A DNA stretch of 55,968 nt from a virus, in the IMG/VR virus record IMGVR_UViG_3300044815_000221, positions 1-55,968 of that record, one strand, 5' to 3'. Below are positions 2,163-47,782 of the stretch, one piece after another. Position 1 is the first letter of the stretch. Each line of letters starts with the position of its first letter. Under the pieces are notes generated by a model that worked only from the letters and a program-made list of their open reading frames with translations, was not told the origin of the DNA and ran no database searches. A program made the translations under genes and the position numbers.

Positions 2163-2687
2163 TTAAGAAGCCACACAATCAATCGTTGAATTGAGCCGTG
2201 CGATCTGCCCGTTCAACTCACTTGCATATTCGTTGTAGCGCGTCAGCATCAAACGCTGAACATTCGTGCGCGCCGATTCAGGAATGTTCTGCAACGCGCT
2301 CTTCGCCTGATTCATCTCCGCGATCTTTGCGTTGCAAAACGAAATTGACGCCTGCGCTTCAGCCGTAACAGAAGTCGTCAGCGTGTTCAGCAGACTCACA
2401 AGCGAAGCGACCTGGCTAACCAACTGCGCCGCCCTCGCCGCATAGACAGCAGGCCGTGCCGCATCCGGCAACTCTCCCTTAATGAGTGCATAGATTTGTT
2501 CGTCCATGCTCTTCTTCAACGCCTTGATATGAGATATGGCATTGAGGTCAGGCAGATCACCAAACTGCTCGCCGATGTACGTCGCTCCATTGCCGCCAGC
2601 ACAACCTACGCTCGGAATCGTTGGCAGCGCGTGAATGTTTGGCAACGGCAAATGCGGCAGCCTGGCCGGAGGTAACGTGATGCTCAT
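2163..2687 (-). CDS. Coiled-coil tail/baseplate-associated protein of unknown function
   Basis: A 174-aa protein with a proline-rich N-terminus (about residues 1-30) followed by a long alpha-helical, heptad-like region (about 60-170) rich in Ala, Gln and Leu. It overlaps the end of the spike gene by 4 bp (ATGA), so the two are translationally coupled and it is probably a baseplate or tail component. The two cassette tail modules lack this gene, so it belongs to the resident module only. Family not recognised. Confidence 0.5.
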   Translation of the reverse strand: MSITLPPARLPHLPLPNIHALPTIPSVGCAGGNGATYIGEQFGDLPDLNAISHIKALKKSMDEQIYALIKGELPDAARPAVYAARAAQLVSQVASLVSLLNTLTTSVTAEAQASISFCNAKIAEMNQAKSALQNIPESARTNVQRLMLTRYNEYASELNGQIARLNSTIDCVAS

Positions 2688-3178
2688 CCAATCCTCCGAT
2701 CACCAATGAAGACGCCGCCGCCCGCAATGATTCTGAGAGAGGCATCAGTCTCGATATGCACGCGACCGGCGCGAAGCTGATAATCGCCCTCCGCGATGTG
2801 CTTCATGTCAGCAGGCGCGCGCACGCCGACGATGGCCGAGTCTCTGAAATCGGCAGGGACGATGAAGTCTTCGTTATACACAGACAGGAAATAAAGATTG
2901 TGCTTCTGTCCTAACCGTCCAAATAAAATAACCTCGCTTCCAACTGGTGGAACATAAAAGCTGCCGTAGCCTTCACCGAGCACAGAGCAACCGAGTTGAC
3001 GACACCATTTGTCATAGATTGAATTTTCATCAATGGCCGGAATCACAACCTTGATTCGGTGCTGATGTTCAGGGTCTTCATTGATGGCAACGATTCCTTC
3101 AATACACATCATCCAGCGGTCATTAACCTCTCTGCGACCATGCCCGCGATTCAAGCTACTTAGAATGTTCTTTCCCAT
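2684..3178 (-). CDS. Baseplate assembly/spike protein, gpV-type OB fold (module 1)
   Basis: A 164-aa homologue of phage baseplate assembly protein V, which sits at the tail tip and pierces the outer membrane. Residues about 25-110 carry the OB-fold pattern: EGIVAINEDPE...RIKVVIPAID, then GxGSFYVPPVGSEVILF. The C-terminal segment ends in short beta repeats (HIETDASLRII) typical of the start of a spike needle. It follows the gpD hub gene directly. A closely similar copy lies at 17609-18073; module 3 lacks one. Confidence 0.85.
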   Translation of the reverse strand: MGKNILSSLNRGHGRREVNDRWMMCIEGIVAINEDPEHQHRIKVVIPAIDENSIYDKWCRQLGCSVLGEGYGSFYVPPVGSEVILFGRLGQKHNLYFLSVYNEDFIVPADFRDSAIVGVRAPADMKHIAEGDYQLRAGRVHIETDASLRIIAGGGVFIGDRRIG

Positions 3179-4216
3179 TTAATTCTTCCGATCATCTATA
3201 TCGCCAAACAATTCAAAAGAAGTGAACAACCCTCTCGATGAAAAGTCGTGTGCAACTTTGTCGCAGATATACTTTCCACCGAACAGCTTTCCAACAGCCT
3301 GTAATTCAAGCGTGTCGCGGACATCTATCCGAACCTTATCAAGCGGCGAAAGCATCTTCACCGAACCGGAGAATGAGTGCTCGCGTTCCAGTTCCTTCTG
3401 CGCTTGTGCGCGAGCATTGGCAGAGGATTTGGTGTGCTTTGGTAAATCTTTTTTGAGCGAGACATGTTCATTTCCACGCGGATTGATCTCTGACGCGCCG
3501 CTCAATCTCTTTCCACCTCTCCCGCGCCCTCTCACCTCAACTTTTTTGGAACGGCCTTCCTGGTTCTCCGGCACGTTGTAGGTCAAGTGAAAATCGCGGA
3601 GAACGTTGGAGTCTCTCTTACAATCAAGGTTCAATTTAGGAACTCCGGTTTTCGCCGGATACTTGGCATACAAAGTCTCGCTCCTGACAAACAGCACCAG
3701 CCCTGCATCCTGTGCGCGCTCGGCCACATGTTCCCAATCCGTTTGCTCGTCTTGAATCATGGCATCGTGATTTCCAAGTTTGAGCGGCTTCTCCGGCCCT
3801 TCAAATTTCAACCCGTTACGCTCGGCCAGCTTTTTGATAATCGCGAGATCATCAAGCTTGTTGTGATAGCCAGGACGTTTCACTAAACGCATCTTGAAAC
3901 CCATGTCATAGGCCAACAGCGTGGTATCAGGTCCCGTGCGCTCAACCCTTCCTAACAAGCCTTCAAAAACAGGCGCTCCCAAATTCGAGATTTCGCCATA
4001 GCCGAGCCAAAATTTCATCACGGCCAGCGGCACGCCATCGGCCTTCGTATACCTATCGAGCAACTTAAATTCAGGATCAAAAAACTCCCAGACCGCTTGC
4101 GATGCTTCGCCCGTTGCAAGCTCGATGCTGACAGATTTGAAAAGACGCGGGTGCTTCCACGAATCCCAAATCGTGCCATCAATTTCTACCAGAGCATGGG
4201 CGTTGCTTGGGGTCAT
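3179..4216 (-). CDS. Late control D-type tail hub protein (module 1)
   Basis: A 345-aa member of the gpD/gp27 hub family that forms the central ring joining tail tube to spike. Family features include the N-terminal PDNAH-like start, a WDSWKHPRLFKSVSIEL beta sandwich, the central DWEHVAERAQDAGLVLFVR segment, and a C-terminal ARAQKELEREHSFSG helix followed by an OB-like region. It overlaps the LysM gene by 4 bp upstream and abuts the spike gene. Paralogues lie at 18092-19141 and 27249-28343. Confidence 0.88.
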   Translation of the reverse strand: MTPSNAHALVEIDGTIWDSWKHPRLFKSVSIELATGEASQAVWEFFDPEFKLLDRYTKADGVPLAVMKFWLGYGEISNLGAPVFEGLLGRVERTGPDTTLLAYDMGFKMRLVKRPGYHNKLDDLAIIKKLAERNGLKFEGPEKPLKLGNHDAMIQDEQTDWEHVAERAQDAGLVLFVRSETLYAKYPAKTGVPKLNLDCKRDSNVLRDFHLTYNVPENQEGRSKKVEVRGRGRGGKRLSGASEINPRGNEHVSLKKDLPKHTKSSANARAQAQKELEREHSFSGSVKMLSPLDKVRIDVRDTLELQAVGKLFGGKYICDKVAHDFSSRGLFTSFELFGDIDDRKN

Positions 4217-4464
4217 ACGCGGTTCAAACTCGCACCTTCAGGAGACTGTTGAGGGATCAGCAAAATAGTGCCAGGCTCAATTTGCCGCACATCAATGATG
4301 TTGTTTCTATCTGCAATAAGACGCCAGAGCCTCCAGTCACCATAGAACCGGCTCGCCAATCCAGAGAGCGTATCAGTGGCCTTAAAAACATATTCCTCAA
4401 GATAAGCATCAGTGTCCGGTGACAACTCTCCGTAACGTTCATAGGGGCTAATACTGCGAATCAA
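4213..4464 (-). CDS. LysM-domain tail adaptor, tail protein X/gp53-like (module 1)
   Basis: An 83-aa protein that is essentially one LysM domain: YVFKATDTLSGLASRFYGDW, then RLIADRNNIIDVRQIEPG and TILLIPQ. Small LysM proteins of contractile tails connect the hub to the tube or wedge. It overlaps the tube-initiator gene by 4 bp (a TTG start inside CCTTGA) and the hub gene by 4 bp, indicating coupled translation. Copies occur at 19138-19389 and 26959-27252. Confidence 0.85.
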   Translation of the reverse strand: MIRSISPYERYGELSPDTDAYLEEYVFKATDTLSGLASRFYGDWRLWRLIADRNNIIDVRQIEPGTILLIPQQSPEGASLNRV

Positions 4465-4964
4465 GGTTGCGGCCCCTTTCCTCTAAAAATTACTTCATCA
4501 CTAAAATCAACATCGTCTCTATCAACCGTACCGAGTTGCTCGCCGTAGCTTTGAATTTCAATCAACTGCAAACGGACGCGAGCGCGTAAAGGCTCGCCGT
4601 CAGAGGAAAAGAATTGCTCCTCGACTGAAATTTCTTCGAGCACGACCTGTTCTTGTCTGTCGCCCCAGATCGCGACCAATGCCGGAGGCGTGCCCTTCTT
4701 CGTTTCATTCTGCAAAGCAAACAAGAGCTTGATGTCAGATGTAATCGAATTGCCTGAATCAGACTTATCAAGCCAGATTTCATCAACCGTGATACGGCGC
4801 GGATCGCGGTTGCCGTAGAACAACGGCTTTGTCCCAATCGTCACATCCTGCGCTTCCCAATTCGCGCGTCGAGTCGTGTTGATCTTCGCTGGAAAGAAAT
4901 CGAAGACGAATGAGCCTGGCCCTTCCTGATTAACCAACACAAATTGCCCAAGCTGGACGCTCAT
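4461..4964 (-). CDS. Contractile injection system tube-initiator (CIS_tube-type) protein (module 1)
   Basis: A 167-aa protein with the pattern of the N-terminal domain of CIS tube/LysM adaptor proteins (Pvc7/gp53 type): an FVFDFFP motif near residue 20, RRANWE, then DPRRITVDEIWLDKSDSG and a C-terminal SSDGEPLRARVRLQLIE strand. In other systems this domain is fused to a LysM; here the LysM is the next gene. Start and stop overlap both neighbours by 4 bp. The module 2 copy (17077-17607) has moved to the end of its gene set, and module 3 has none. Confidence 0.75.
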   Translation of the reverse strand: MSVQLGQFVLVNQEGPGSFVFDFFPAKINTTRRANWEAQDVTIGTKPLFYGNRDPRRITVDEIWLDKSDSGNSITSDIKLLFALQNETKKGTPPALVAIWGDRQEQVVLEEISVEEQFFSSDGEPLRARVRLQLIEIQSYGEQLGTVDRDDVDFSDEVIFRGKGPQP

Positions 4965-7336
4965 CCCTGTGTACCTCGCGCATTACGCCGATCTATGCGC
5001 CGCGAAATGATGTTTTCCAATTCCTCCCCATGCTTATACAAAAGCGCTGCAAATTCATTCGGGTCGCCACCCGTAATCTCGATCTTCGGTGAATAATTGA
5101 CGTTGATATGGTGCGTATCGCCGCCTGTGGTATTGCGCCCTTGCAAACGGAAAGGCGGAAGCGCTGGCGGTGTAAACAATGGCCTGTTTACACCTGGCGT
5201 TGGAAAGCGAGGCTGAGGGGAGTTACCTCCTGGCTCGAATGGAAAGTTAGGAGAGCCTAAAGGTATGGATGGCATAATCGGCTGAAGATTACTCAAGCGA
5301 TCTGCAAAAGAAGTGGCTGATTGTTCTGCACGCGAGAATGCGAAAGGTAGCTTTTCGGTTGGGATCAACAATTCAGTAAAATTCTTCGTCGCGTCTCCTG
5401 TTGATTTGCCTAGTTCGCTCATCTCCTGCCGAAGTTCATCCGAAGCATTTTGAGAGGCGACCTTTGACTTCTCTGGAAGGGCTAACGATAAAATTTCTTT
5501 GAAGCGTTGAGACTGTTCGATGTTGAGACCTGTTTTGCCGGTATCTACCTGACGCAATAATCTTGTCAAAACATTCGGATCGCTCAAGACGGTTCCGACG
5601 CTTGATTGTTTGATCTCAGAAGCAGCTTCGTAGATTGAGAATTTGCCGCCCTGTGTGTTTTCAGGTTGGATGCCACGCTGAAAAGAAGGCATCATCTGAA
5701 TAACGCCGAACGCCTGCGTTGCTAAAACATCAAGATTCTCTCTGTTCTTCTGCGCTTCGTTACGCCTTGTCCATAATGCTCCGCCCTTAAAGTTTTCCTC
5801 ATAGCCTGTGCCGAGAGCTTCCTCGCGTTTTGCTTCCTCTGCGTTTCGCTTTTTATTTTCCTCGATGAGCCATGAAATAATTTCGACACCGGCCCCGACT
5901 GCGGCGATTCCGATGGTCAACTTCAAGGCGGAGATGCGGGATAGGAAGCCGACAGTTTTACCTAACTCTTCACCTTTCTCATTCGCGGCGGCAGCAGCGA
6001 TCCGCCACAGACTCCAAGCGGCAGCCCCTGCCTTCACCGTACCGGCCAGTGTTGCTGCAATGCTGCCGAGAGCAAAAAGCTCAGTTCCAACTTTCGCTAC
6101 ACCCTGATGTTCTTTGGCAATCCCCTGAAGTGTCCCAAGCCAACTATTGGTAGTGTCGAGTACAGGCTTGACGGTATCAAGCATTGGAGTAAAAGTGCTC
6201 GACTTCAAATTATCAAGCGTGCCCTGTACAGCTTCCAACTTCGAGTTGTATAGCTCCATCTGTTGGTTGATTTTCTCATTAACACGAACAGCCTTTGCTC
6301 CTTCAGTGGTGATTGACCGCCAACCTTCAGCCCCGCTCTGAACCATCACGCCCGCAACTTTTCCGCCTTGCTCGCCAAAGAGCTTGTTTAATAATTCGAG
6401 CCGCTTCTCACTTGAGAACTTGCGGAACTTCTCCATTTCTTTGAAAGCATTATCTAAGCCTAGAAACTCTCCCTTCTTATCGAATAGCTGAAGGTCAAGC
6501 CCCGTTTCTTTCTTGATCTTGGCGCGCTTGTCAGCTTGAGCAATGAACTGTTGGAAATATGATGTCGCGCTCGTACCGGCCTGGCTTCCCTCCATCGCCC
6601 CTTCACGCTTCAGGAGAGCGAAAAACTTTGAGGTCTCTGATGCTCCGCCAAAGCCAGTCAGCTTGAGGGAGTTGGCTGTGTTCTGGAAGTATTTGGCGCT
6701 CTCAATTAACTCGTTGGAATCAATATCGAATCTATCTTTCAGAGCAGAAAACAGATCAACTGATTTTCCAAACTCTTCAGGTTGGAGTTTGAACAATTTA
6801 CCGAATTGGCCTAGTCCTTTGGCCTGCTCATTCGCCATGCCGCTAGTCAGTGCGCCACTAACGTTGGCGAGGTTAGCCGCCGCTTCACCCGCGCCGTTCA
6901 ACACCGTCTCTGCATCAACACCGGCTTTTTTTAATGAGGCCAGAATGCCTATGTAGTCGGCGGTGCTGCCCTGCAAATTATTACCAAGTCGAGTGGCAAG
7001 GTGTTCGAGTTGATTAAGTTGATTGGCTTGTTCGGCGAGGCTCTTACTGCCCGCTCCTGACGCCTCCTGATATGCGCTTTTCAGGTCTAATAAACCTGCC
7101 TCAAAATTGCCGGCAGCTTGAACGCCATTTCTGAGCATCGCCATCATGCCGACGCCGACACCCGCAAAGGTCAATCCTTGTTTGAGGTCTTTGCGAAGGT
7201 CTTGAACAGTAAGCAGCATCGCGCGACCTTCCTTGCCCGTCGCGCGCAGACGATCCTCAAAGCGATCAAGACCGCCACTAGCAGCGTCTTTTAAGCTTAA
7301 TAGGATTGCTAATTCGTATGCTGAACCTGATGGCAT
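4961..7336 (-). CDS. Tail tape measure protein (module 1, 791 aa)
   Basis: A long helical protein that sets tail length and is ejected with DNA. The N-terminus (SAYELAILLSLKDAASGGLDRFE) matches the N-termini of the other two tape measure proteins. A hydrophobic region (about residues 420-500) is the membrane-active part, and the C-terminus has Pro-rich linkers and a final HHINVNYSPKIEI block shared with the 873-aa copy. The ATG lies right after the terminator-like stem of RNA copy A, without a clear Shine-Dalgarno. Unlike module 2, it does not overlap its chaperone gene: a zinc-ribbon gene, a terminator and the RNA element separate them. Confidence 0.9.
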   Translation of the reverse strand: MPSGSAYELAILLSLKDAASGGLDRFEDRLRATGKEGRAMLLTVQDLRKDLKQGLTFAGVGVGMMAMLRNGVQAAGNFEAGLLDLKSAYQEASGAGSKSLAEQANQLNQLEHLATRLGNNLQGSTADYIGILASLKKAGVDAETVLNGAGEAAANLANVSGALTSGMANEQAKGLGQFGKLFKLQPEEFGKSVDLFSALKDRFDIDSNELIESAKYFQNTANSLKLTGFGGASETSKFFALLKREGAMEGSQAGTSATSYFQQFIAQADKRAKIKKETGLDLQLFDKKGEFLGLDNAFKEMEKFRKFSSEKRLELLNKLFGEQGGKVAGVMVQSGAEGWRSITTEGAKAVRVNEKINQQMELYNSKLEAVQGTLDNLKSSTFTPMLDTVKPVLDTTNSWLGTLQGIAKEHQGVAKVGTELFALGSIAATLAGTVKAGAAAWSLWRIAAAAANEKGEELGKTVGFLSRISALKLTIGIAAVGAGVEIISWLIEENKKRNAEEAKREEALGTGYEENFKGGALWTRRNEAQKNRENLDVLATQAFGVIQMMPSFQRGIQPENTQGGKFSIYEAASEIKQSSVGTVLSDPNVLTRLLRQVDTGKTGLNIEQSQRFKEILSLALPEKSKVASQNASDELRQEMSELGKSTGDATKNFTELLIPTEKLPFAFSRAEQSATSFADRLSNLQPIMPSIPLGSPNFPFEPGGNSPQPRFPTPGVNRPLFTPPALPPFRLQGRNTTGGDTHHINVNYSPKIEITGGDPNEFAALLYKHGEELENIISRRIDRRNARGTQG

Positions 7337-7339
7337 AAT

Positions 7340-7425
7340 TAAAAAAGCCCGCCGATCATTTCAGATCAACGGGCTGCTGCTGATGAGCCTCTAGGATTAT
7401 TACTGAGAGCCGCTAATGGGCTGCG
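7340..7425 (-). ncRNA. Repeated structured leader RNA element, copy A (upstream of tape measure 1)
   Basis: Minus-strand reading: a small hairpin AGCC-cattagc-GGCT (7408-7422), an 18-nt linker, GGCTCAT, then a 12-bp stem starting AGCCCG and ending CGGGCT (7346-7375) with a TGAAAT loop and a U-rich tail. This copy has TTGATC facing GATCGG in the inner stem, unlike the other four, so pairing is kept by compensatory changes. It ends at the tape measure start codon. It looks like an intrinsic terminator with a conserved upstream domain, hence a possible attenuator. Confidence 0.6.
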
Positions 7426-7431
7426 ATGTCA

Positions 7432-7494
7432 GAAAAAAACTCTACGCAACTTATCTTTGAGACCATGTATAGCTTTCAAAGATAAGTCGTGTAG
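7432..7494 (-). terminator. Intrinsic terminator after the zinc-ribbon gene
   Basis: Near-perfect inverted repeat of about 20 bp: CTACACGACTTATCTTTGA against CTACGCAACTTATCTTTGA. On the minus strand it is followed by GAG and seven T residues. It overlaps the last codons of the small zinc-ribbon gene and lies just ahead of RNA copy A, so transcripts from the chaperone side should stop here. Confidence 0.75.
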
Positions 7495-7637
7495 AGCTTG
7501 ATGGAAAGACCGACCACAATCAGGATAACAAAAAAGCTAATAGCGAAGTGCGCTAAACTTATCCACCCACAATGAGGGCAAAAGAATGCAGTGTTTGAAA
7601 TTTTGCTCTCGCAATCTGGGCAAGACTCAAGGCTCAT
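7476..7637 (-). CDS. Small zinc-ribbon membrane protein (53 aa)
   Basis: Short ORF between chaperone and tape measure of module 1. It starts MSLESCPDCESKIS, continues FFCPHCG, then has one transmembrane helix (FAISFFVILIVVGLSI). The two CxxC pairs form a zinc ribbon. Larger proteins of the same design lie at 22802-23098 and 55705-55968, so this is a repeated accessory gene type. Its insertion here breaks the usual chaperone/tape measure overlap. Confidence 0.6.
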   Translation of the reverse strand: MSLESCPDCESKISNTAFFCPHCGWISLAHFAISFFVILIVVGLSIKLYTTYL

Positions 7638-7694
7638 ATTGCGATATTAACATGTCGGCAAAACTAGCGAAAGAATGCGAAGGGAAGCGGCTTG

Positions 7695-7862
7695 CTACTT
7701 ATTGTTCGCTTCCTCGTAGAAAGAGGTGAGTGTCTCTATATATAGATGCACTCGCTCAAATGGGAGAGACAGGATAGCTTCCTCGCTCCATCCGGTTTCA
7801 CGGGCCAGTACCAGCACGGCTTTCGCCATTTCCTTCTGATACTGTGCTTCGGCCTGCGCGAA
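7695..7862 (-). CDS. T-type extension of the tail assembly chaperone, reached by frameshift (module 1)
   Basis: Open frame with no start of its own, offset +1 (equivalently -2) from the chaperone gene. It encodes FAQAEAQYQ, then MAKAVLVLARETGWSEEAIL and SLPFERVHLYIETL, the pattern of the T half of lambda G-T type tail chaperones that binds tape measure protein. The likely shift site is TCG-TTT-CGC at 7858-7866: slipping UUU to UUC enters this frame. Mu is known to use a -2 shift at this gene, so the exact mode is open. The fused product would span 8469 to 7695. Confidence 0.7.
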   Translation of the reverse strand, partial: FAQAEAQYQKEMAKAVLVLARETGWSEEAILSLPFERVHLYIETLTSFYEEANNK

Positions 7863-8469
7863 ACGACTGCCGCCAGATCAAACTGGCGGCCCTCATATCT
7901 AAAATGTCAACCCCATCGAGTTTCTCAAAAACTTGAAGTTCCAGCGTCCCATCGAGGGAATACTTCCCATCTTCAGAGAGCAGCGTTTTAATCTGCTTGC
8001 CAATCAAAAAACATTCGCGCTTGAGTCCGGTCAGTTTCTCTTTTTCGGCTGCTATCAATTCCATTCCTGTAATTCTATTACCGAACTGGACTCGGTTGTA
8101 AACGATCCCATTATTCTCATAACCGACTGGTAGCTTGACTTCGCTCTCAGAGATGAATTGAGCCGTCCGGCCTTCTACTCCTTCAGCCAGAAAGTCGTTA
8201 TAGCCAGTCATCAAATCATCAATATCAATGACATCCAATTTAAGTAATGTGCTGAGAGGAACAGGAAGGGGCAACGTGCCAAAGGCCGTAATTGCCCCGC
8301 GCAAGACCATGAGTTTATGTTGTGTCGGAATCTCGCTCTGTTGGTCGGCGTCCATCTCAAAGAGTTCACGCCCACGCAGCCGTTTCCCAAATGAGACGTG
8401 CGTATGCCTGACACCCTTGCCGTCAGTGTGGCCGATCACAAGTTCGATTGTTTTTGATGTTGCGTCCAA
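7798..8469 (-). CDS. Tail assembly chaperone, G-type (Mu gp41 position, module 1)
   Basis: A 223-aa protein between tail tube and tape measure genes, where contractile and siphophage tails encode the G chaperone. Two internal half repeats (ELVIGHTDGKGVRHTHVSFG and KLPVGYENNGIVYNRVQFGN) each describe a small beta unit; the same duplicated pattern occurs in the copies at 21971-22663 and 30974-31639. The last about 25 residues follow the presumed frameshift site and have low-complexity character, as expected for a read-past tail. Confidence 0.8.
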   Translation of the reverse strand: MDATSKTIELVIGHTDGKGVRHTHVSFGKRLRGRELFEMDADQQSEIPTQHKLMVLRGAITAFGTLPLPVPLSTLLKLDVIDIDDLMTGYNDFLAEGVEGRTAQFISESEVKLPVGYENNGIVYNRVQFGNRITGMELIAAEKEKLTGLKRECFLIGKQIKTLLSEDGKYSLDGTLELQVFEKLDGVDILDMRAASLIWRQSFRAGRSTVSEGNGESRAGTGP

Positions 8470-15859: not shown

Positions 15860-15867
15860 ACAAAATG

Positions 15868-15945
15868 AAAGCAGCCCGCCAGTCCTTTTCAGACTGACGG
15901 GCTGCACATGAGCCTTATCTAATAATGTGACCCTGCGAAGGGCGC
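15868..15945 (-). ncRNA. Repeated structured leader RNA element, copy B (upstream of protease gene)
   Basis: Minus-strand reading: hairpin CCCT-tcgc-AGGG (15931-15942), 16-nt linker, GGCTCATGTGCAGCCCG, then a 12-bp stem with inner TCAGTC/GACTGG pairing and loop TGAAAAG (15871-15905). The tail GCTTTCATTTTG is less U-rich than in other copies. A six-codon frame M-C-S-P-S-V ends with its stop in the terminator loop. It ends only 12 nt before the protease ATG, which has no other obvious ribosome site. Confidence 0.6.
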
Positions 15946-15970
15946 TTAACTTAAAACTTACGAGAGCGAA

Positions 15971-16138
15971 TCAACGACCCGCGCTGCCAACCCACTTTAC
16001 TTTGAGGTTGCCGTCAAAACGAATAATCTCAACTGCGTTCCAGTTCCGGCAAGATTTGCATTTCCATCTAATGAGGCGAATCGGATCGCTCACTTCCATC
16101 TGTGGCCGGTTGCAATACTTGCAGCGTACCAACGACAT
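15971..16138 (-). CDS. Com-like zinc-finger RNA-binding protein
   Basis: About 55 aa from an ATG with AGGA six bases upstream. The sequence MSLVRCKYCNRPQ...IRWKCKSCRNWNAVEI has two CxxC knuckles, as in Mu Com, which binds a hairpin in mom mRNA and opens it for translation. No mom-like modification gene is recognisable nearby. It lies immediately upstream of RNA copy B, so that element, or its four relatives, is a plausible target; this is inference. Confidence 0.65.
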   Translation of the reverse strand: MSLVRCKYCNRPQMEVSDPIRLIRWKCKSCRNWNAVEIIRFDGNLKVKWVGSAGR

Positions 16139-16467
16139 TTCAATTCCTGAGACGTTCTGATCTGCGACTACATTAGACTTAATGGCTGCTTCTGGAAATG
16201 CCATATCTTGATTCCTAAAAACCGGCTCTCAAATACCTTCCAATGCCGCAAATATCATCCAATACAGCCCGACAGCAAAACCGTGTAGGGTAAGACGTAT
16301 TTTTCAATCGAAGGCTTACAGGCCATTTGTGGGCGACTTTGGTTCAAACGCCGGAGGTGACAGACGCAGGATCAGCTTGACTGATCTACATTGCAAGAGG
16401 CCGCTCTATCCTGCATCCGTTTTCAAGGAGACTCGACCATCGAAAATCAACATAAACTGAAAACAAT

Positions 16468-16653
16468 TTAAGGGCAACCGAAAAGATTTACCTGGGTATT
16501 GAGTAACAGTTTGATAAACGCGTGTACCCTGTGGCCCGCGCGGATCAGGAACGGGCGTGTCGGATCGCAGCAGTTGGCGCAGAGCCAACTGGTCTTGATA
16601 TGTCGCCAGGTGTAAATCTCAGTGCCCGGCAATTTAGCTTTCCGGTTTTTCAT
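16468..16653 (-). CDS. Small hypothetical protein overlapping the MuF C-half stop
   Basis: A 61-aa frame whose ATG overlaps the stop of the MuF C-terminal half (AAATGA), suggesting coupling. It contains a Cys cluster (SWLCANCCDP). Another frame over the same bases (16406-16588) looks equally gene-like, so a frameshifted gene is possible. From here to 16204 I see no gene, only a short perfect hairpin (GATCAG-tcaag-CTGATC on the minus strand). Confidence 0.35.
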   Translation of the reverse strand: MKNRKAKLPGTEIYTWRHIKTSWLCANCCDPTRPFLIRAGHRVHAFIKLLLNTQVNLFGCP

Positions 16654-17168
16654 TTCCGACTCTCTTTCGCTCTCTTCGCTCCAGCTTCGATGACCTCTCC
16701 AAGTCCACCCTGCGCTGGAATCCCTTTGAACTTTCCGACATTCAAATCATAAACCGCAGTTCCTACTTCAGCTTTGGCAGGGATGCCGCTCTTATCGTAA
16801 ACAAGCTCGGCCTCACCGCTCGGATTCTGATGATTATATCCAGTCGGCATCTTCGCCATCGCCGTCACCGTGCAGCGACAGTTAAATCCCCAGGGCGGAT
16901 AATGTTCATTCCAGAATTCGTGATCCGCAGGAAGGGTTAAACCATCGAGAGCGCGATGACGTGGCCGTGTCCGGTCATCGAGTACCGCGTGATACTGCCA
17001 CAAAGGTAAGTCAGCCGCGACTTCTTCAAACGCCTGTCGTCGCCCAACCCCATACGCAACTTGGCAGTTAGTTCTGTTAAAACTGTGGCCCAAACGGACG
17101 CCGCCCCGAACCATTCCCCTCATCACTAAAGTCAACGTCATCGCGGGCGTTGCTGCTGTTGCGCTCAT
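16650..17168 (-). CDS. MuF head morphogenesis protein, C-terminal half (gene split by cassette)
   Basis: Homology to MuF/SPP1 gp7 minor head proteins begins only at about 17081 (RTNCQVAYGVGRRQAFEE) and continues through YHAVLDDRTRPRHRALDG to HYPPWGFNCRC, the signature of the MuF C-terminal domain. Residues before that are translated from the end of the tube-initiator gene in another frame and are not MuF. The missing N-terminal half lies 9.3 kb away at 26273-26962. Whether this half is translated alone is unknown. Confidence 0.85.
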   Translation of the reverse strand: MSATAATPAMTLTLVMRGMVRGGVRLGHSFNRTNCQVAYGVGRRQAFEEVAADLPLWQYHAVLDDRTRPRHRALDGLTLPADHEFWNEHYPPWGFNCRCTVTAMAKMPTGYNHQNPSGEAELVYDKSGIPAKAEVGTAVYDLNVGKFKGIPAQGGLGEVIEAGAKRAKESRK

Positions 17169-17607
17169 TCAATTCTTGATGCTCAAGTAATTGCAGGCTA
17201 ACGCGGGCGCGCAACGGTTCACCAAACGAATTGAAAAAGGTTTCCTCAATGCGAATTTCTTCAACTACCACAGGACGCACTTCTCCATCTTCGCCATAGA
17301 TAGCTAGCAACAATGGCGGCGTGCCGTTCTTCGTCTCATGGTGTAATTCCAGAAGGGCGTTGATGTCGTCTCTAATGGATTCGCCCGAATCTGTCTTATC
17401 AAGCCATAGCTCATCAATGCTAAGGCGTTGCGGGTCGCGGTTGGTGTAGGCAATAGGCTTCACGCCAATCGTCGTATTCTGTTGCTCCCAGTTTGCCCTT
17501 GCCAGCGTGCTGATGGAACGGGGAAAGAAATCAAAAACGAAAGCATTGACCTTGCCGCCTCGTGGCTCGGCAAATGCCAAGAGAAATTTTCCAAGTTGCG
17601 TTGACAA
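17077..17607 (-). CDS. Tube-initiator (CIS_tube-type) protein (module 2)
   Basis: A 176-aa paralogue of 4461-4964, with the same FVFDFFP, RANWE, DPQRLSIDELWLDKTDSG and FGEPLRARVSLQLLE blocks. The start is a TTG (STQLGKFLL) with AGGAGG ten bases upstream; the longer frame overlaps the spike gene. Here the gene is last in its module instead of second, and its TAA stop is part of the junction with MuF. Confidence 0.72.
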   Translation of the reverse strand: MSTQLGKFLLAFAEPRGGKVNAFVFDFFPRSISTLARANWEQQNTTIGVKPIAYTNRDPQRLSIDELWLDKTDSGESIRDDINALLELHHETKNGTPPLLLAIYGEDGEVRPVVVEEIRIEETFFNSFGEPLRARVSLQLLEHQELNERNSSNARDDVDFSDEGNGSGRRPFGPQF

Positions 17608-17608
17608 T

Positions 17609-18073
17609 TTAACCAGACCTCCTGCCATTAAGAAATATGCCGCCAGGTGCGATGATTCGCAGAGAGGCATCTGTCTCAATGTGTGCGCGTCCGGCGCGCA
17701 GTTGATAATCACCTTCACAAATATGCTTTAAGTCAGCAGGCGCACGCACACCGCATACAGCCGTATCCCTGAAATCTGCCGGAACAACGAAGTCTTCGCC
17801 GTAAACGCTCATATAATAAAGATTGTACCGTTGGCCTAAGCGTCCGAATAAAACAACCTCGCTTCTAACAGGTGGAACGTAGAAGCTGCCGAAGCCATTG
17901 CCGCCGACAAAAACGCCAACCTGTTTTACCCACTTGTCATAAATAGTGCTTTCATCAATCGCGGGAATATACACCTTGATGCGATGTTGATTCTCAGGGT
18001 CTTCATTGATGGCAACGATGCCTTCAAGACCAAAGAAGTATTTATCGTCTAAATCGCGTCTGCCGTTTCTCAT
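17609..18073 (-). CDS. Baseplate spike protein, gpV type (module 2)
   Basis: A 154-aa protein closely similar to 2684-3178: EGIVAINEDPENQHRIKVYI, FGSFYVPPVRSEVVLFGRLG and DFRDTAVCGVRAPADLKHI. The conservation of the OB fold and spike base argues that the cassette copy is functional. It is followed two bases later by the tube-initiator TTG. Confidence 0.82.
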   Translation of the reverse strand: MRNGRRDLDDKYFFGLEGIVAINEDPENQHRIKVYIPAIDESTIYDKWVKQVGVFVGGNGFGSFYVPPVRSEVVLFGRLGQRYNLYYMSVYGEDFVVPADFRDTAVCGVRAPADLKHICEGDYQLRAGRAHIETDASLRIIAPGGIFLNGRRSG

Positions 18074-18091
18074 CTACTTAACCCTTTTAAG

Positions 18092-19141
18092 CTACTCATC
18101 AATATCTCGGTATAGAATATAGTCAGTTGAAAATCCGCTGCCTGTTAAGTCATGCCTGATAGTGTCAATCAGATAAAGACCGCTCAGAAGATCACCAAAG
18201 CCAACGAGCTTTACAGTGTCACGAACATCAGAGCGCACAAGCGGCAAAGGTGGAATCGTGCGAACATTTGCGGAGAAGGCATGTTCACGATGCAGTTGCT
18301 TCCTCGCGTGAGCTTTCGTATCCGCGTATGTCTTGGTGTGAATCTCAAGGTCTTTCTGAACATCCAAATGCGTTACCCCGCGACGATGAACCTCAGACCT
18401 GCCAGTAAGCCGCCTGCCACCGCGCCCGCGTCCGCGCATCTCCACCTCAGATGGCCGCCCCTTCACGTTTTCAGGAATCTTATGAGTGAAATCAAACTGT
18501 TGTAAGATTCCAAATTCTTTTCGGTTGAGTGAGTAAGCGTCACTATGATTGGCTAGAGTAAGCGAAGGCGTTTTTGCCGTGTGTGCAGGCTCTTTCGCAT
18601 ACAACGTATCGCCGCGTACATAAAGAACCAGCCCCGCCGATTCAGCCCGCTCCATTGCAAGTTCCCAATCGGAATGCCCCGCCTGCATCATTGCCGAGTG
18701 TCGCTCATGTCGAAATGGTTTATCAGGCGCTTCAAACTTTAAGCCGTTTCGCTCTGCCAGCTTCTTAATGATTTCAACGTCGCTCAGTTTGTTGTGATAG
18801 CCAGTCTTCTTATGCTTGTGCATCTGGCTTCCCATGTCATAAGCGACGAGGGTTGTATCAAAGTCGTTGCGCTCCGTTCGATTGAGCAAGCCCTTAAAAA
18901 TAAACTCGCCCAAATCCATACCGAAGCCGAGCCAGAATCGCATCGGTAAATTGGTAAGCGCATTCTTAGTTGTGAAGCGATTGAGCAGCTTAAAGTCAGG
19001 GTCAAAGATTCTGAAATGTGCCTCAGAAATTTTATTAGTGGTTAGCTCGACGGTGACTTGCTGGATGAGACTCGGATGCTTCCATGAATCGAAAATTTCA
19101 CCGTTTACATCAATAATGGCGTGGGCGTTATCAGGAATCAT
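18092..19141 (-). CDS. Late control D-type tail hub protein (module 2)
   Basis: A 349-aa paralogue of the module 1 hub, sharing IFDSWKHPSLIQQVTVEL, DWELAMERAESAGLVLYVRG, the R-G-R-G-R-G-G motif and HARKQLHREHAFSANVRTI. It differs throughout, so it is not a recent duplicate. It overlaps the LysM gene upstream by 4 bp. Confidence 0.85.
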   Translation of the reverse strand: MIPDNAHAIIDVNGEIFDSWKHPSLIQQVTVELTTNKISEAHFRIFDPDFKLLNRFTTKNALTNLPMRFWLGFGMDLGEFIFKGLLNRTERNDFDTTLVAYDMGSQMHKHKKTGYHNKLSDVEIIKKLAERNGLKFEAPDKPFRHERHSAMMQAGHSDWELAMERAESAGLVLYVRGDTLYAKEPAHTAKTPSLTLANHSDAYSLNRKEFGILQQFDFTHKIPENVKGRPSEVEMRGRGRGGRRLTGRSEVHRRGVTHLDVQKDLEIHTKTYADTKAHARKQLHREHAFSANVRTIPPLPLVRSDVRDTVKLVGFGDLLSGLYLIDTIRHDLTGSGFSTDYILYRDIDE

Positions 19142-19389
19142 ACAGAACCAAACCGCCCTTCATCGCGTGGCCTATTTGGAATAAGCAGAATTGTTCCAGC
19201 AGGTATCTGTCTTACGTCTATGATGTTGTTCCTGTCTGCAATAAGCCTCCAAAGTCGCCAGTCATCATAGAAGCGATGTGCCAGTCCCGTAAGCGTGTCA
19301 GCAGCCTTAAAAACATATTCCTCAAGATAAGCGTCGGATTCCGGCGATAGCCCGCCGTAGCGTTCGTATGGTGATATTGAACGGCTCAT
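19138..19389 (-). CDS. LysM-domain tail adaptor (module 2)
   Basis: An 83-aa single LysM domain, strongly similar to 4213-4464 (SISPYERYGGLSPESDAYL, then ADTLTGLAHRFYDDWRLW). It lies directly after the tape measure gene, with the tube-initiator gene absent from the position it has in module 1. Confidence 0.85.
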   Translation of the reverse strand: MSRSISPYERYGGLSPESDAYLEEYVFKAADTLTGLAHRFYDDWRLWRLIADRNNIIDVRQIPAGTILLIPNRPRDEGRFGSV

Positions 19390-19391
19390 TG

Positions 19392-21899
19392 CTACGCGCC
19401 TCTCTCTTCGTCTCTATCTTTCTCTTCCGCAATCATGCGCGCCAATTGTCGCGGGTTAAGATTTGAGGCATTGTTAATCTTGATGTCGTACCGATGATGA
19501 TGCGTGTGATGATGCACTCCCCCGCGCGATTCTCTTGCAGAGAGCGATGAATCTGCATATTGACCAGACTCGCGCTGTGGCCTGCCGCCATACATTGCAT
19601 GTATAAGCTCAACTCCACGATCAGGCCGAACATAGCCATGAAGCGAGCCTTGAATTACCGTTGCCCCTTCCTTCTGGTCGCCAGTTGGCGGCGGGTTTGT
19701 TGGTGAAGCATTATTCAGCCGCGAAGCTGAATTGATAATGCTTTCAGTTAGGGTTTTTGACGCCTCTCCTACACTTAAAAAGGCATCGGGAACGGGCAAC
19801 ATCTTTAATTGAAGCTGCTCGAATAGCTGATTGGTTGGTGCTAATTGCTGGCTGAGATTCTGAATCTCTTGAGTTGTTTGCTGCGTCGCTTGGCGGTAGC
19901 TCTCAGGGAAAGCCATCTCAAGAGTTTTTGCCATCATGCCAAACTCATCGGGTTTAAGCTTACTTTTGGTAAGATTAAGAAACTCCCGCATCACATCCGG
20001 CACGGAAAGTTCTTGATGATGTTGCTGAAAATCTGCGGCGGCAACAGGGGCGCTCCAACGCCCTCCGAAGGTGTAAGGGTTCTGCGGTTGAAGCGAAGCG
20101 GCACGCACGACACTCTCAAGCATGTTCACAGTGCGACTACCCTTGAAGGCATCTCCCATGTAATCAATCGTATCGGTTTCGCCAAAATTCCCTACAAGCT
20201 TATCGCGCTTTGAGATGTCAGCCCACGCTGTTTGTGCGTTAGACTTATAAAAATCTTGAGGAACGGGCTGGCCTAACTCAGCATAATGCTTCCGCAGCTT
20301 AAGCAGTGATTTTAGATTGCCGCTGTTCGCGCTATCGGCACCTCTCTGCGCTTCATCAGCAGCGTTTTCGGCCTCGACGTGCTCAATAATTTTGCTGACT
20401 GTATAGACGGTAGCTATTGTGAGACCAATCGGACCAAGCGCACTCAGCGTCCCAAGCTTAGTCAACAGCCCACCTACCGACGCACCTGCACCGCCCGCCT
20501 CCCCACTCAAGCCAGCGAAATATCCGACCAACCCTGAGCCTTTCAAAATAGCGGCAGTTTCAGCGAGAGCAGACAACCCTTTGCCGCCCACAAGAACCGC
20601 AACAGCCCACTTCGCCGCCGTCGGATGCTCTCCAAAAATCTTAACGACAGGCGTTAATGAATCAACAAGTTTGGTTCCAGTTTCTACCAGAGGCTCGCCA
20701 ACTTTCGTCCTGAAATTTTCTAATGCTGCCGTGAACTTCTCAATTTTACCCATTGGCGAATCTAACGCCTGATCGTATGCTTGTCCGATGTCCTTAGATT
20801 TCTCAGTCATTCCTGATTCTTTTAGGACTTGATTCCTTTGCGTGGTAAGCAGGCTCATCATGCGAAAGGCGGTATTCTTCTGGAAAAGCCTGCCTAGCTC
20901 CGCACGCACAGCGTTATCATCGGCGGTATTGATGCCGTGAGTTTTCATCGCCCCCATGAGCATATCGGCGGCTTCTAAGGGGTCGCGCATGAACGGCTCT
21001 GCCAGCTTGTTACCACCTGGAAGAATCCGTTTTATCTTCTGCGCCTTGCCAAACTGAACTTTATTTTTATCAACCAACCCAAGCCGCGAAAATTCCTCTG
21101 CCGCGTATTGAGGCATCACACCTGTTACCAAAGCGCGATAGGATGCCTGCAAAGCCGTTCCCGCTCCTGCTCCTTTCAGTTCCATCAAAACGCTTTGCAT
21201 GTGGCGCAAGCCTTCAACGGATAAACCCTGAGCAGCAGGCGAACCCATGCGAGCGAAATCAAACAACTCCGTAGGAGAAACTTTTCCAGCGCGTGCAGTC
21301 TGCATCTGCACCATCACGTTGAAAAACTTCTCCATCTCATCGCGCCCCTTCGAAACCTTCCCTGTCACTTCAAGAAAGCGGAAAGCTGCGTCGGTTTGCT
21401 TTTCGACTTCTTCGGGGCTGTATTGATCTCCGAGCAGGGTCTTAAGAGAGAATTGATATTTTGAAGCAAGTGGTAATGCTTCTATGGCGTGATCTAAGCT
21501 GCCGAGTGCGGTATGGAGCGTTGCTATCTCAGTGGTCGCATCCGCTAGAGAGATGCCCTGAATGTTCTTGACGGTTTCTTCAACGGCCTTAAATGCGCGT
21601 GCATTCTCAGCAGGGGAAAGATTGATAGCCTGAAACTTGCCCTGTGCTCTGGCAAGTTTCATGTAGGCGTCGGTATAGACGCTCAATGAATCGGCTTGAC
21701 GACGCCACACATCGCCCACGCGGGACAACGGAGCAATGACCCTATCGTGGAGCGAAGCGAGATTGCCGAGAACTCCGGCGTGCTTCGTAGCCGCTCCACC
21801 TAACCTCCCAAGCCGAGCCTCGAATTTATCAAGGCCCTGTGAAGCGCGGTCTTGCAGGCTCAGGAGTATCTTTAGTTCGTATGTTTCACTTCCCGCCAC
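19392..21899 (-). CDS. Tail tape measure protein (module 2, 835 aa)
   Basis: Starts at GTG (AGSETYELKILLSLQDRAS) overlapping the chaperone extension by 14 bp, the usual layout. Residues about 185-375 are almost identical to the module 3 tape measure, while the flanks diverge. A membrane-prone stretch lies around residues 430-500. The C-terminus has a His-rich HHHTHHHRYDIKIN segment, similar in place to the HHINVNYSPKIEI end of module 1. Its length would set a slightly longer tail than module 1. Confidence 0.88.
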   Translation of the reverse strand: MAGSETYELKILLSLQDRASQGLDKFEARLGRLGGAATKHAGVLGNLASLHDRVIAPLSRVGDVWRRQADSLSVYTDAYMKLARAQGKFQAINLSPAENARAFKAVEETVKNIQGISLADATTEIATLHTALGSLDHAIEALPLASKYQFSLKTLLGDQYSPEEVEKQTDAAFRFLEVTGKVSKGRDEMEKFFNVMVQMQTARAGKVSPTELFDFARMGSPAAQGLSVEGLRHMQSVLMELKGAGAGTALQASYRALVTGVMPQYAAEEFSRLGLVDKNKVQFGKAQKIKRILPGGNKLAEPFMRDPLEAADMLMGAMKTHGINTADDNAVRAELGRLFQKNTAFRMMSLLTTQRNQVLKESGMTEKSKDIGQAYDQALDSPMGKIEKFTAALENFRTKVGEPLVETGTKLVDSLTPVVKIFGEHPTAAKWAVAVLVGGKGLSALAETAAILKGSGLVGYFAGLSGEAGGAGASVGGLLTKLGTLSALGPIGLTIATVYTVSKIIEHVEAENAADEAQRGADSANSGNLKSLLKLRKHYAELGQPVPQDFYKSNAQTAWADISKRDKLVGNFGETDTIDYMGDAFKGSRTVNMLESVVRAASLQPQNPYTFGGRWSAPVAAADFQQHHQELSVPDVMREFLNLTKSKLKPDEFGMMAKTLEMAFPESYRQATQQTTQEIQNLSQQLAPTNQLFEQLQLKMLPVPDAFLSVGEASKTLTESIINSASRLNNASPTNPPPTGDQKEGATVIQGSLHGYVRPDRGVELIHAMYGGRPQRESGQYADSSLSARESRGGVHHHTHHHRYDIKINNASNLNPRQLARMIAEEKDRDEERGA

Positions 21900-22056
21900 G
21901 CCTGACCTCGCTTATCTCTTCGACGATCTCTAAATATCCATTGCGCCGTTCAATAGACATCTCAAGGATGTCAGATTCTTTCCAATGAAATTCTCTGGAT
22001 AGAATCGCCACCGTGTAGGCTGTCGTCTTCCTGAATCTTTTTTCTGCTTTTGCGAA
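21886..22056 (-). CDS. T-type extension of the tail assembly chaperone, reached by frameshift (module 2)
   Basis: Frame without its own start, offset +1 (or -2) from the chaperone gene. It encodes FAKAEKRFRKTTAYTVAI, LSREFHWKESDILEMSIE and RRNGYLEIVEEISE; the FHWxxxDILEMS motif is typical of T domains. The likely site TCT-TTT-CGC (22052-22060) matches TCG-TTT-CGC in module 1. An A-AAA-AAG run ten bases later is an alternative site for a -2 shift. The extension ends inside the tape measure start. Confidence 0.72.
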   Translation of the reverse strand, partial: FAKAEKRFRKTTAYTVAILSREFHWKESDILEMSIERRNGYLEIVEEISEVRRGGK

Positions 22057-22663
22057 AAGATTCCCGCCACCTACGGGCGGCGGCTTCTAAAGCGAAAATA
22101 TCAACCATGTCAAACTGCTTGAAAACTTCTAAATCAAGAGCGCCCTCAATGCGGCCTGCCCCCTCTGATTGTGAAAGCCTGACGACCTGCTGCCCAGCCA
22201 GATAACAAAGCCGCTTGACACCTTCCAGTTCGAGTTTGTCGGCTTCAAGTTCGTGCAGGCCGGTGAGACGCACGCCGAACGTCACCACGTCATAAACAGC
22301 GCCGTTGACTTCATGCCCGAAGGCAAGTTTGACCGTATCATCCGACAGGGACTCGGCAACACGTCCGCCAAGACCGCTCGCAGAAAAGAGATTGTAAGCC
22401 GCCGACAAATCATCTCTATCAATGGCATCCAAATGGAGTAGCCATAATTGAGTAACGGGCATTTTGGCTTCCCCGAATTTAGTAATAGCTTTGGCAAGAA
22501 TCATGTCGCTATAAGTCGTCGCAAGCTTTGCTCGCGGGTCGTCGCCAATGTAAAAAAGGTCAAGCCCTGTTAAGCGATGGCCGAAAGTAACGTCCTTATG
22601 CACCTTGCCTTGCCTGTCCGTGTATCCAATCTCTAGCGTGATGTCGAGCGGTTCAACTTCCAT
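21971..22663 (-). CDS. Tail assembly chaperone, G-type (module 2)
   Basis: A 230-aa paralogue of 7798-8469, starting at MEVEPLDITLEIGYTD with AGGAGAG upstream. The duplicated beta pattern is clear (VHKDVTFGHRLTGLDLF and VYDVVTFGVRLTGLHEL). A longer frame extends through RNA copy C and in this copy is in phase with it. After the shift site the zero frame runs on only for a charged tail. Confidence 0.8.
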   Translation of the reverse strand: MEVEPLDITLEIGYTDRQGKVHKDVTFGHRLTGLDLFYIGDDPRAKLATTYSDMILAKAITKFGEAKMPVTQLWLLHLDAIDRDDLSAAYNLFSASGLGGRVAESLSDDTVKLAFGHEVNGAVYDVVTFGVRLTGLHELEADKLELEGVKRLCYLAGQQVVRLSQSEGAGRIEGALDLEVFKQFDMVDIFALEAAARRWRESFRKSRKKIQEDDSLHGGDSIQRISLERI

Positions 22664-22684
22664 CTGTTTCTCTCCTAATTTGTA

Positions 22685-22768
22685 AAAGTAAAAGCCCGCC
22701 AACCTTTTCAGGTCAACGGGCTGCATGAGCCGGTAGATACCGCAATTCAGGGACTGTGAAAGTCCGCG
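22685..22768 (-). ncRNA. Repeated structured leader RNA element, copy C (upstream of chaperone 2)
   Basis: Minus-strand reading: hairpin GGACT-ttcac-AGTCC (22751-22765), 19-nt linker, GGCTCATGCAGCCCG (two bases shorter than copies B, D and E), then a 12-bp stem with inner TTGACC/GGTTGG pairing and a U-rich tail (22693-22722). Because of the 2-base deletion the short upstream frame is altered and an ATG here reads through in frame with the chaperone gene. Confidence 0.62.
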
Positions 22769-22801
22769 AGATATTTGAATTGTTTATAGCACGCAGGCTA
22801 T

Positions 22802-23098
22802 CTAAGCGCCATTCCTTTGCTTCCCAAAGATTGCAAAAATAACAAGCAAAACAATCCCACCAAAGACGCCCCACACAACAAGAGCGGACATATGAGCGGA
22901 TTCAATTAAAAAGAGAGCCAAGAGATATAAAACCAAGAAAGCGAACCCCATCTTTACAAGTGCGGCCAGCGCGACGAGAACCGATAAAGCATTTGGCTTT
23001 TTAGGCACAGGCTTCCCACATTGCGGACACATCGCCGCCTGTGTTGAGACTTGCTTGCCGCAATCTGGACAGGTAACTAAAGGCATAACATTACTCAC
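22802..23098 (-). CDS. Zinc-ribbon membrane protein (cassette 2)
   Basis: A 98-aa protein: zinc ribbon CPDCGKQVSTQAAMCPQCG at the N-terminus, then two transmembrane helices (ALVKMGFAFLVLYLLALFLI and VVWGVFGGIVLLVIFAIFG). An ATG four codons in (MPLVTCPDCG) is an alternative start. The same design recurs at 7476-7637 and 55705-55968. It stands next to the repressor gene, where prophages often carry superinfection-type genes; function unknown. Confidence 0.7.
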   Translation of the reverse strand: MSNVMPLVTCPDCGKQVSTQAAMCPQCGKPVPKKPNALSVLVALAALVKMGFAFLVLYLLALFLIESAHMSALVVWGVFGGIVLLVIFAIFGKQRNGA

Positions 23099-23744: not shown

Positions 23745-24293
23745 ATGCCAAAAGATTCTACAACACAAGAACATAAACCGCCTGAGATTTGGGTATTCCA
23801 CCCCATTGACAGCAGCGAGGCGAGAGGATTAGCCGAAGTCATCTCAAACAGAATCAACCTGTGGGAGCGTGGAGGTATAGCAGGGTTGCTTATCAAGCTC
23901 CTTGCTGGCTTGGCTGCGAATTGTGACGGTTCAGGAAATGAAAGTTGTGGGTGCGCTGTTGAAGATGTCACATGGCACGCGCTCTTTGAGTTCTTCAAGA
24001 CAACCCAAAAGTTTAATGACACGTTCCATGATTACGTCGTCAACGATTTAAAGATCGCGCACGATTTCAGGAAAGAGGAAGAATCCGAGCCAGTAGCGCA
24101 GCCGGAACGCAAGATGCACTTTGAAGGAACGCTTGAGCGCATCGCCTACATCATCGGCAAGACGCGCTTTCTACTCACAGACCAATGCGAACTAACCGAC
24201 GATGAAGCATTAGGGAAAATCCGCGACTTAATCTCGGAGATGGACTGGCGAAAGGAGGGCGCGGGCGATGAAGAAGAGGCGACCAATAACTGA
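23745..24293 (+). CDS. Hypothetical protein of cassette 2 operon (182 aa)
   Basis: ATG preceded by GGAGGGG. Acidic, soluble, mostly helical protein with a Cys-rich patch (ANCDGSGNESCGCAVED, about residues 64-80). Family not recognised. The C-terminal third (LERIAYIIGKTRFLLTDQCELTDDEALGKI) resembles in character the helical DDEALMRIRDELLDVD end of 51158-51691. It overlaps the next gene by 26 bp. Cassette 3 has different genes at this place. Confidence 0.6.
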   Translation: MPKDSTTQEHKPPEIWVFHPIDSSEARGLAEVISNRINLWERGGIAGLLIKLLAGLAANCDGSGNESCGCAVEDVTWHALFEFFKTTQKFNDTFHDYVVNDLKIAHDFRKEEESEPVAQPERKMHFEGTLERIAYIIGKTRFLLTDQCELTDDEALGKIRDLISEMDWRKEGAGDEEEATNN

Positions 24294-25137: not shown

Positions 25138-25142
25138 AGGGA

Positions 25143-25169
25143 AGGGGCGCACCGTAAAAATGCGCCCCT
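25143..25169 (+). promoter_or_regulatory. Hairpin just upstream of the cassette 2 endonuclease start
   Basis: AGGGGCGCA and TGCGCCCCT form a perfect 9-bp stem with a 9-nt loop. The purine-rich 5' arm is the only Shine-Dalgarno-like sequence before the endonuclease ATG at 25179, so the stem would mask it. The cassette 3 endonuclease has an open GAGGGG site and no such stem. Confidence 0.55.
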
Positions 25170-25178
25170 ATTAACACA

Positions 25179-30961: not shown

Positions 30962-30973
30962 TGCTCTTTATCT

Positions 30974-31664: not shown

Positions 31665-31750
31665 TAAGAAAAAGCCCGCCAACCTTTTCAGGCCAACGGG
31701 CTGCACATGAGCCGCTAATGATCGCTATTTAGGGACTGTGAAAGTCCGCA
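31665..31750 (-). ncRNA. Repeated structured leader RNA element, copy D (upstream of chaperone 3)
   Basis: Minus-strand reading: hairpin GGACT-ttcac-AGTCC (31733-31747), 19-nt linker, GGCTCATGTGCAGCCCG and a 12-bp stem with inner TTGGCC/GGTTGG pairing and U-rich tail (31673-31702). A six-codon frame M-C-S-P-L-A ends in the loop. Upstream hairpin and stem are nearly the same as copy C, consistent with common cassette ancestry. Confidence 0.62.
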
Positions 31751-31793
31751 AGATTTCGGGATGAATATAGAGCGTGAGAGATATTAGAGCAAA

Positions 31794-34715: not shown

Positions 34716-34725
34716 GGGGCAAGTT

Positions 34726-42544: not shown

Positions 42545-42609
42545 AATTTGCTGTTCTCCTGTCATGTGAATTGCGGAAGACCCGCGTCGGTTTAAGAGCG
42601 GCTCGGTGA

Positions 42610-42695
42610 AAACGAAAAGCCCGCCAGTCTGCATTAGACTGACGGGCTGCACATGAGCCGCTCGGTTGTTATTGAAGTCCTGTGGCAGGACGCTC
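42610..42695 (-). ncRNA. Repeated structured leader RNA element, copy E (upstream of CsbD-like gene)
   Basis: Minus-strand reading: hairpin GTCCT-gccac-AGGAC (42677-42691), 17-nt linker, GGCTCATGTGCAGCCCG, then a 13-bp stem with inner TCAGTCT/AGACTGG pairing, loop AATGC, and tail TTTTCGTTTT (42618-42648). The upstream hairpin has another sequence than in copies A-D but the same position and shape. The six-codon frame M-C-S-P-S-V ends at TAA at the loop. Confidence 0.62.
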
Positions 42696-42740
42696 TGTTC
42701 GATTTCGGAGAGTATTACAAGAAAGGTTTAGTGGCAAGAA

Positions 42741-47781: not shown

Positions 47782-47782
47782 T

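Follow-up and report, generated by a model that had tools for sequence, protein, structure and literature searches.

A repeated promoter-leader-terminator element at the late operons of Mu-like phages, a putative attenuator

Introduction

At the late promoter PR' of phage lambda, a promoter-proximal terminator (tR') is overcome by Q antitermination, and in phage HK022, the hairpins of the put leader RNA are tied to terminator read-through. Late switches in Mu-like phages have been thought of as activator-driven. In Mu, the activator C is required for the expression of lys, I, P, and mom (PMC4461284). A further arrangement has been described for the ANTAR leaders of the eut operon, in which a first hairpin is followed by a linker and by a second hairpin overlapping the terminator (PMC8934654).

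Here, we describe an element that occurs in five copies in the genome of a soil-bacterium phage, Mu-like and with a contractile tail, taken from IMG/VR and analyzed over its whole length of 55,968 nt (hereafter, the window). The full unit consists of a sigma-70-type promoter, a hairpin (hairpin 1), a linker of 12 to 19 nt, the word GGCUC, and an intrinsic terminator starting with AGCCCG, followed by a late gene. Our searches yielded a total of 34 copies. The 15 records that carry them are for the most part divergent Mu-like phages and prophages, several of which reside in Acidobacteria.

The element shares features with each of the systems above. As at lambda PR'-tR', a terminator lies immediately behind the late promoter and would keep late genes off by default. 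Unlike lambda, there are several dispersed leaders with conserved RNA structure per phage, and no Q protein was detected over the Pfam cut-off among the window proteins tested, a search that other types of Q could escape. The element is set apart from HK022 put, as the latter is described, by containing the terminator itself. Like the C-activated promoters of Mu, it is located at the lysis operon and at the protease I gene in Mu-like genomes (PMC4461284); unlike them, most copies have recognizable -35 and -10 boxes at 17-bp spacing, no Mor/C protein was found (see below), and control would follow initiation. As in ANTAR/EutV systems, a second hairpin overlaps the 5' arm of the terminator and excludes its formation, and several leaders would be controlled together (PMC8934654). 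However, neither hairpin has a hexaloop with A1 and G4, and the ANTAR domain (PF03861) was found in 0 of the 15 records including three host genomes, in a search that is weak, as its own control genomes also remained below the cut-off. The RAT sites of BglG, SacY, and LicT likewise form a weak terminator-overlapping hairpin that needs a bound protein to win, but the hairpin described here comprises only about 13 to 18 nt, its sequence is not recognizably related, and the CAT_RBD domain (PF03123), which was over the cut-off in four control genomes, was found in 0 of the 15 records. The element belongs neither to the ANTAR nor to the BglG/RAT systems.

Results

The window encodes a MuA-like transposase (52083-54242) and a MuB-like gene (50030-51121) besides GemA-like genes, terminase, portal, protease, major head protein, and sheath. 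A query of an annotated phage set with bases 1-25000 of the window gave no near relative, and a protein-based search for close relatives yielded almost none. Three paralogous tail cassettes with chaperone, tape measure, LysM, D-like, and spike genes are located on the minus strand (2163-8469, 17077-22726, and 26273-31639). The Mu-F-like head gene appears interrupted by cassettes 2 and 3, with pieces at 16650-17168 and 26273-26962. These two cassettes are adjoined by plus-strand blocks (23745-26318 and 32787-35892). In each block, a LAGLIDADG/HTH protein gene is accompanied by small genes of the S24-like and Lar-like types, some of them 90 to 95% identical. The blocks look like mobile tail modules borne by homing endonucleases. 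Additionally, a lone response-regulator receiver protein is encoded at 45356-45802 (minus strand), which is kept in the G003 and G002 prophages and lies within the lysis operon there.

All five copies of the element were located on the minus strand at the positions given in a preliminary description, which had also quoted the letters of the stems correctly. The pattern AGCCCG-N-CGGGCT was observed five times in the window versus 0.06 times expected, and no shuffle reached five. Each copy had been described as lying just upstream of a gene, and all five precede late genes. Copy 1 (7340..7425, E 1.8e-17) leads the tape-measure gene (4961-7336). Its hairpin 1 (7422-7408) is followed by the linker, GGCTC (from 7389 down), and the terminator (7375-7346), with the ATG 9 nt past the stem. 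A candidate -10 box read from the sequence, TAGAGT (7439..7444), is weak and falls largely within the 3' arm of another, strong terminator hairpin that is separate from the element (about 7440-7500, fold -35.5 kcal/mol); the promoter scan favored another site. Copy 2 (15867..15946, E 6.4e-11; hairpin 1 15943-15930, GGCTC from 15914 down, terminator 15903-15873) leads the Mu-I-like head protease with a likely ATG at about 15859, and the scan found no convincing promoter for it. Copy 3 (22687..22768, E 3.6e-18; hairpin 1 22765-22751, GGCTC from 22731 down, terminator 22722-22693) leads the second tail cassette, with a chaperone-like gene (within 21971-22726, likely ATG at about 22662). A candidate -10 box, TATAAA (22783..22788), again read from the sequence, lies 17 nt before hairpin 1 and has a poor -35 box. 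The third tail cassette (gene 30974-31639) is preceded by copy 4 (31667..31750, E 1.9e-19; hairpin 1 31747-31733, GGCTC from 31713 down, terminator 31702-31673) with a promoter at 31764..31792 (-35 TTGCTC at 31792-31787, 17 bp, -10 TATATT at 31769-31764). Copy 5 (42612..42694, E 4.3e-19; hairpin 1 42691-42677, GGCTC from 42659 down, terminator 42648-42618) leads the lysis and packaging operon, which starts with a CsbD-like gene within the ORF 42314-42652. Its promoter (42709..42737; -35 TTGCCA at 42737-42732, 17 bp, -10 TACTCT at 42714-42709) directly follows the upstream ORF, whose end is at 42741. Small zinc-ribbon or membrane proteins are encoded directly upstream of several elements (15971-16204, 22802-23098, 7476-7637 on the minus strand, and 55705-55968 on the plus strand), and some of them have one short conserved stretch in common.

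Hairpin 1 has four to five pairs, as described previously. The linker had been given as 16 to 19 nt, while it actually measures 15 to 19 nt in the window and 12 to 19 nt in outside copies. Of the proposed constant word GGCTCAT, only GGCTC holds, with outside copies carrying GGCTCGA, GGCTCAA, GGCTTAC, and others. A conserved leader peptide (ATGTGCAGCCCG...TGA) was considered for copies 2, 4, and 5 and rejected, as it is missing in copies 1 and 3 and in most outside copies.

Covariation statistics, which the preliminary description had suggested, revealed real covariation in both helices. In an alignment of 17 copies, 95.8% of the cells were paired versus 80.7% in shuffles, and two-sided changes numbered 47 versus 12.9, with 0 of 500 shuffles as high. 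Sliding the partners by one column lowered pairing to 44 to 54%. The score of the model-aligned copies was 0.54, compared to 0.22 in shuffles and at most 0.12 with slid partners. Changes on both sides were observed for all five pairs of hairpin 1 and for six of the 12 terminator pairs. Because this alignment had been fitted to the structure, a hand-made register was tested too, with a similar outcome; an earlier MAFFT alignment of six copies was likewise tested for covariation. The outer stem of the terminator, AGCCCG/CGGGCU, is near-constant, and the inner six pairs drift. One record (L153:4626-4730) shows a 25-nt tandem duplication of GGCTC...AGCCCGTTGGTC within the element, so that two 5' arms compete for a single 3' arm. 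The leaders of L231 (G172) and L233 (G173) contain an additional hairpin, e.g., GACAGGC...GCCTGTC, between hairpin 1 and GGCTC.

A covariance model, also suggested previously, was built from six copies and used for searches. Further copies with compensatory changes were found in other phages, besides several additional copies in the phages already identified and more in IMG/VR contigs. In a class-level set, four of 162 genomes were matched, one of them falsely, and two copies were found in one further genome; among 396 genomes sampled from the phylum, the true copies were only those already known. Matches in G034, G307, G370, G377, G453, and G467 were dismissed as plain terminators without GGCT. 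An exact pattern scan of IMG/VR resulted in one further real copy (L013). When genome contigs were scanned, the element was recovered, amid many chance matches, from prophages in two MAGs, one of Pyrinomonadaceae (L107) and one of Acidobacteria (L101). Copies close to the type seen in the window account for 28 of the 34 and occur in nine records; the other six records (L167, L169, L172, L173, L178, and L015) score lower, with L015 lacking a clear hairpin 1. No Rfam family matched over its gathering score, the nearest being RybB (14.4 versus a threshold of 40 bits). A literature search, with most subscription journals outside its scope, found no description of the element.

AGCC, located at the terminator base, is also complementary to the conserved GGCU. 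Pairing of the two words can create a small antiterminator hairpin (hairpin 2) that is mutually exclusive with the terminator. GGCU lies 5 to 10 nt before AGCC in every copy, and the loops as read from the sequences are mostly 5 to 10 nt for hairpin 2 and 4 to 7 nt for hairpin 1; copy G172a reads GGCTCGATAGCAGCC. GGCU and AGCC are kept in 33 of the 34 copies, a conservation that is inflated among pattern-found copies because the public scans required GGCTC and AGCCCG. The exception (G170 4004) has GACU with AGUC while its 3' arm is still GGGCU, and this compensated double change supports the pairing. In four copies, the 3' arm no longer fully matches AGCC (GGGCA, GGGACU, and twice GGGUUU), with AGCC and GGCU retained, and G170e has lost one C inside the stem and kept AGCC. 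As both words are nearly invariant, the pairing is tested by just one double change within the family. It thus rests on few changes, and GGCUC may alternatively be a protein site. Three AT-rich phages (L255:631, L268:9370, and L244:1612) carry GACTC...GAAGTCCG...CGGACTTTT between terminase and a protease-like gene. These loci resemble the paired variant but belong to other phages, and may represent a related leader in which the three strands have changed in concert. Most other matches of a viral scan for GACTC...AGYCCG were unrelated.

Predicted energies were -1.9 to -4.1 kcal/mol for hairpin 2 alone and -16 to -31 kcal/mol for the terminator. In predicted folds of the full-length RNA, the terminator was always ahead by about 13 to 28 kcal/mol and the probability of hairpin 2 was about 0, whereas hairpin 2 was often populated in the nascent RNA (rarely so in G3por and G2tmp). 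Default termination is therefore expected, and read-through would need help. An alternative, hairpin 2b, in which GCU would pair with AGC immediately ahead of the terminator, was rejected since it accounts for fewer copies than GGCU/AGCC does. A fifth C-G pair in hairpin 2 is compatible with all copies, yet cannot form where the gap is 2 nt.

In most copies, the promoter lies 13 to 17 nt before hairpin 1. Among the 17 copies found first, 12 had their highest-scoring -35/-10 site within this one 5-nt window, compared to 5.3 in shuffles (0 of 500 as high), and the mean promoter score over all 34 copies was 8.3 versus 4.15 +/- 0.43. TTGCTC-17-TATATT and TTGCCA-17-TACTCT are typical, and still better promoters occur in copies that were found later, e.g., TTGTGA-17-TATATT and TTGTCA-17-TATAGT. 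No clear promoter was found in some leaders, mostly those of proteases (window copy 2, G2pro, and G3x).

The genes following the element encode lysis, portal, protease, and tape-measure functions. A copy precedes the CsbD-like gene opening the lysis and packaging operon in the window, G003, and G002, the portal gene in G003 and G001, the protease gene in all five close phages and more, and the tape-measure gene in the window, G003, and G002. In L107, the element is located directly before a Mu-I-like protease, as is window copy 2. The next reading frame in L167, L172, and L173 is endolysin-like by inspection only, with no family match. In about 20 of the 34 copies, an ATG lies 8 to 13 nt after the stem without a Shine-Dalgarno-like word.

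Mor/C (PF08765) was found in 0 of the 15 element-bearing records, many of which are fragments, so that its absence is not proof. Conversely, the element was found in none of six control Mu-like phages, of which Mu, Mushu, JBD25, and JY19 have PF08765 over the cut-off and TJ1 a weak match; in RS1, the element and a PF08765 match are both missing. With few controls and many fragments, this distribution fits a replacement of activation by attenuation. Pfam scans of the early and middle proteins of the window identified no known antiterminator domain, only a sub-threshold HTH overlap in a LAGLIDADG protein. Conserved proteins of the middle region are encoded at 48427-48837, 47440-47814, 49545-49775, and 54362-54961. 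One candidate regulator, phrog_2161, is encoded directly upstream of the element in L167, L172, and L173. It was rejected, since no ORF of the window group is homologous to it and since it lies between GemA and Mor in JBD25, a phage without the element.

Discussion

The preliminary description had proposed a cis-acting attenuator or antitermination site rather than a shared coding sequence. The outside copies with compensatory changes, the upstream promoters in most copies, the position at the heads of late operons, and the hairpin overlapping the terminator argue for this proposal. The upstream promoter, the alternative GGCU/AGCC pairing, and the closeness of the start codon to the U-tract had been overlooked, and our analysis adds a promoter-leader-terminator unit, its late-operon location, the overlapping hairpin, and an apparent exchange for Mor/C.

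We propose that late genes are probably gated by promoter-proximal attenuation, relieved by a putative factor. Each copy would represent the first 85 to 95 nt of a late transcript. RNA synthesis would start about 9 nt before hairpin 1, and the polymerase would then transcribe the A-rich linker, GGCUC, and the terminator with its AGCCCG/CGGGCU base. By default, the terminator would form and the operon (lysis, portal, protease, or tape measure) would stay off. Alternatively, GGCU would engage AGCC, the tetranucleotide at the start of the terminator 5' arm, and this small hairpin would open the terminator base beside the U-tract and let the polymerase pass. As the GGCU/AGCC hairpin is too weak alone, a stabilizing factor would be needed, probably made by the phage in the middle phase and docking on one or both of hairpins 1 and 2. 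The late operons would thereby all be released together without an activator of the Mor/C type.

A family of stand-alone small RNAs, acting in trans via GGCUC and located at late genes by coincidence, would also account for units of promoter, about 90 nt, and terminator, for GGCUC conserved between two hairpins, and for several paralogues per phage; even the closest Rfam score, far under threshold, is that of the sRNA RybB. We regard this as unlikely, since the copies lie at late-operon starts, often with the ATG 8 to 13 nt after the stem, GGCUC matches the terminator base of its own copy throughout, and a phage would not obviously require five near-identical sRNAs at the heads of its operons. 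A Q-like factor loading at promoter DNA, with the polymerase ignoring the leader terminator and the other RNA hairpins being irrelevant, is quite unlikely. It agrees with the PR'-tR'-like layout and the fixed distance from promoter to leader. However, the strong covariation of hairpin 1 and the conservation of GGCUC/AGCC indicate an RNA structure under selection, and no Pfam Q protein exceeded the cut-off in the tested early and middle genes of the window.

That the copies are ordinary operon-end terminators or insulators, their sequence shared through duplication, seems very improbable to us. Each copy does lie between two gene groups, and the stems are simple, G+C-rich, and followed by U-tracts, but a promoter separates most copies from the upstream gene, copy 1 already has a strong terminator of its own upstream (about 7440-7500), the blocks upstream of copies 3 and 4, past one small gene, are on the other strand, and GGCUC with a covarying hairpin is foreign to generic terminators. 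Similarly, a stability or RNase III processing hairpin in the 5' UTR that trims or protects late mRNA could be read from a 12- to 15-bp stem that immediately precedes the ATG, in many cases with no Shine-Dalgarno-like word. It is very unlikely too, as neither the kept U-tract after the stem nor the alternative GGCU pairing is expected of a processing site.

Under attenuation, the element apparently substitutes for the activator protein by which other Mu-like phages turn on their late genes. It is quite possible, if short of probable, that a widespread Mu-like group has dropped late transcriptional activation and that a phage-encoded RNA-binding antiterminator reads the hairpin-linker-GGCUC leader, releasing all late operons simultaneously. 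Attenuation by a repeated leader would represent a different solution for the late switch, with the examples to date coming from uncultured phages whose hosts are Acidobacteria and perhaps others. The element would also provide a compact RNA switch amenable to in vitro testing. If true, the proposal predicts an RNA-binding antiterminator with several natural targets per genome, a multiplicity that should allow this partner to be found.
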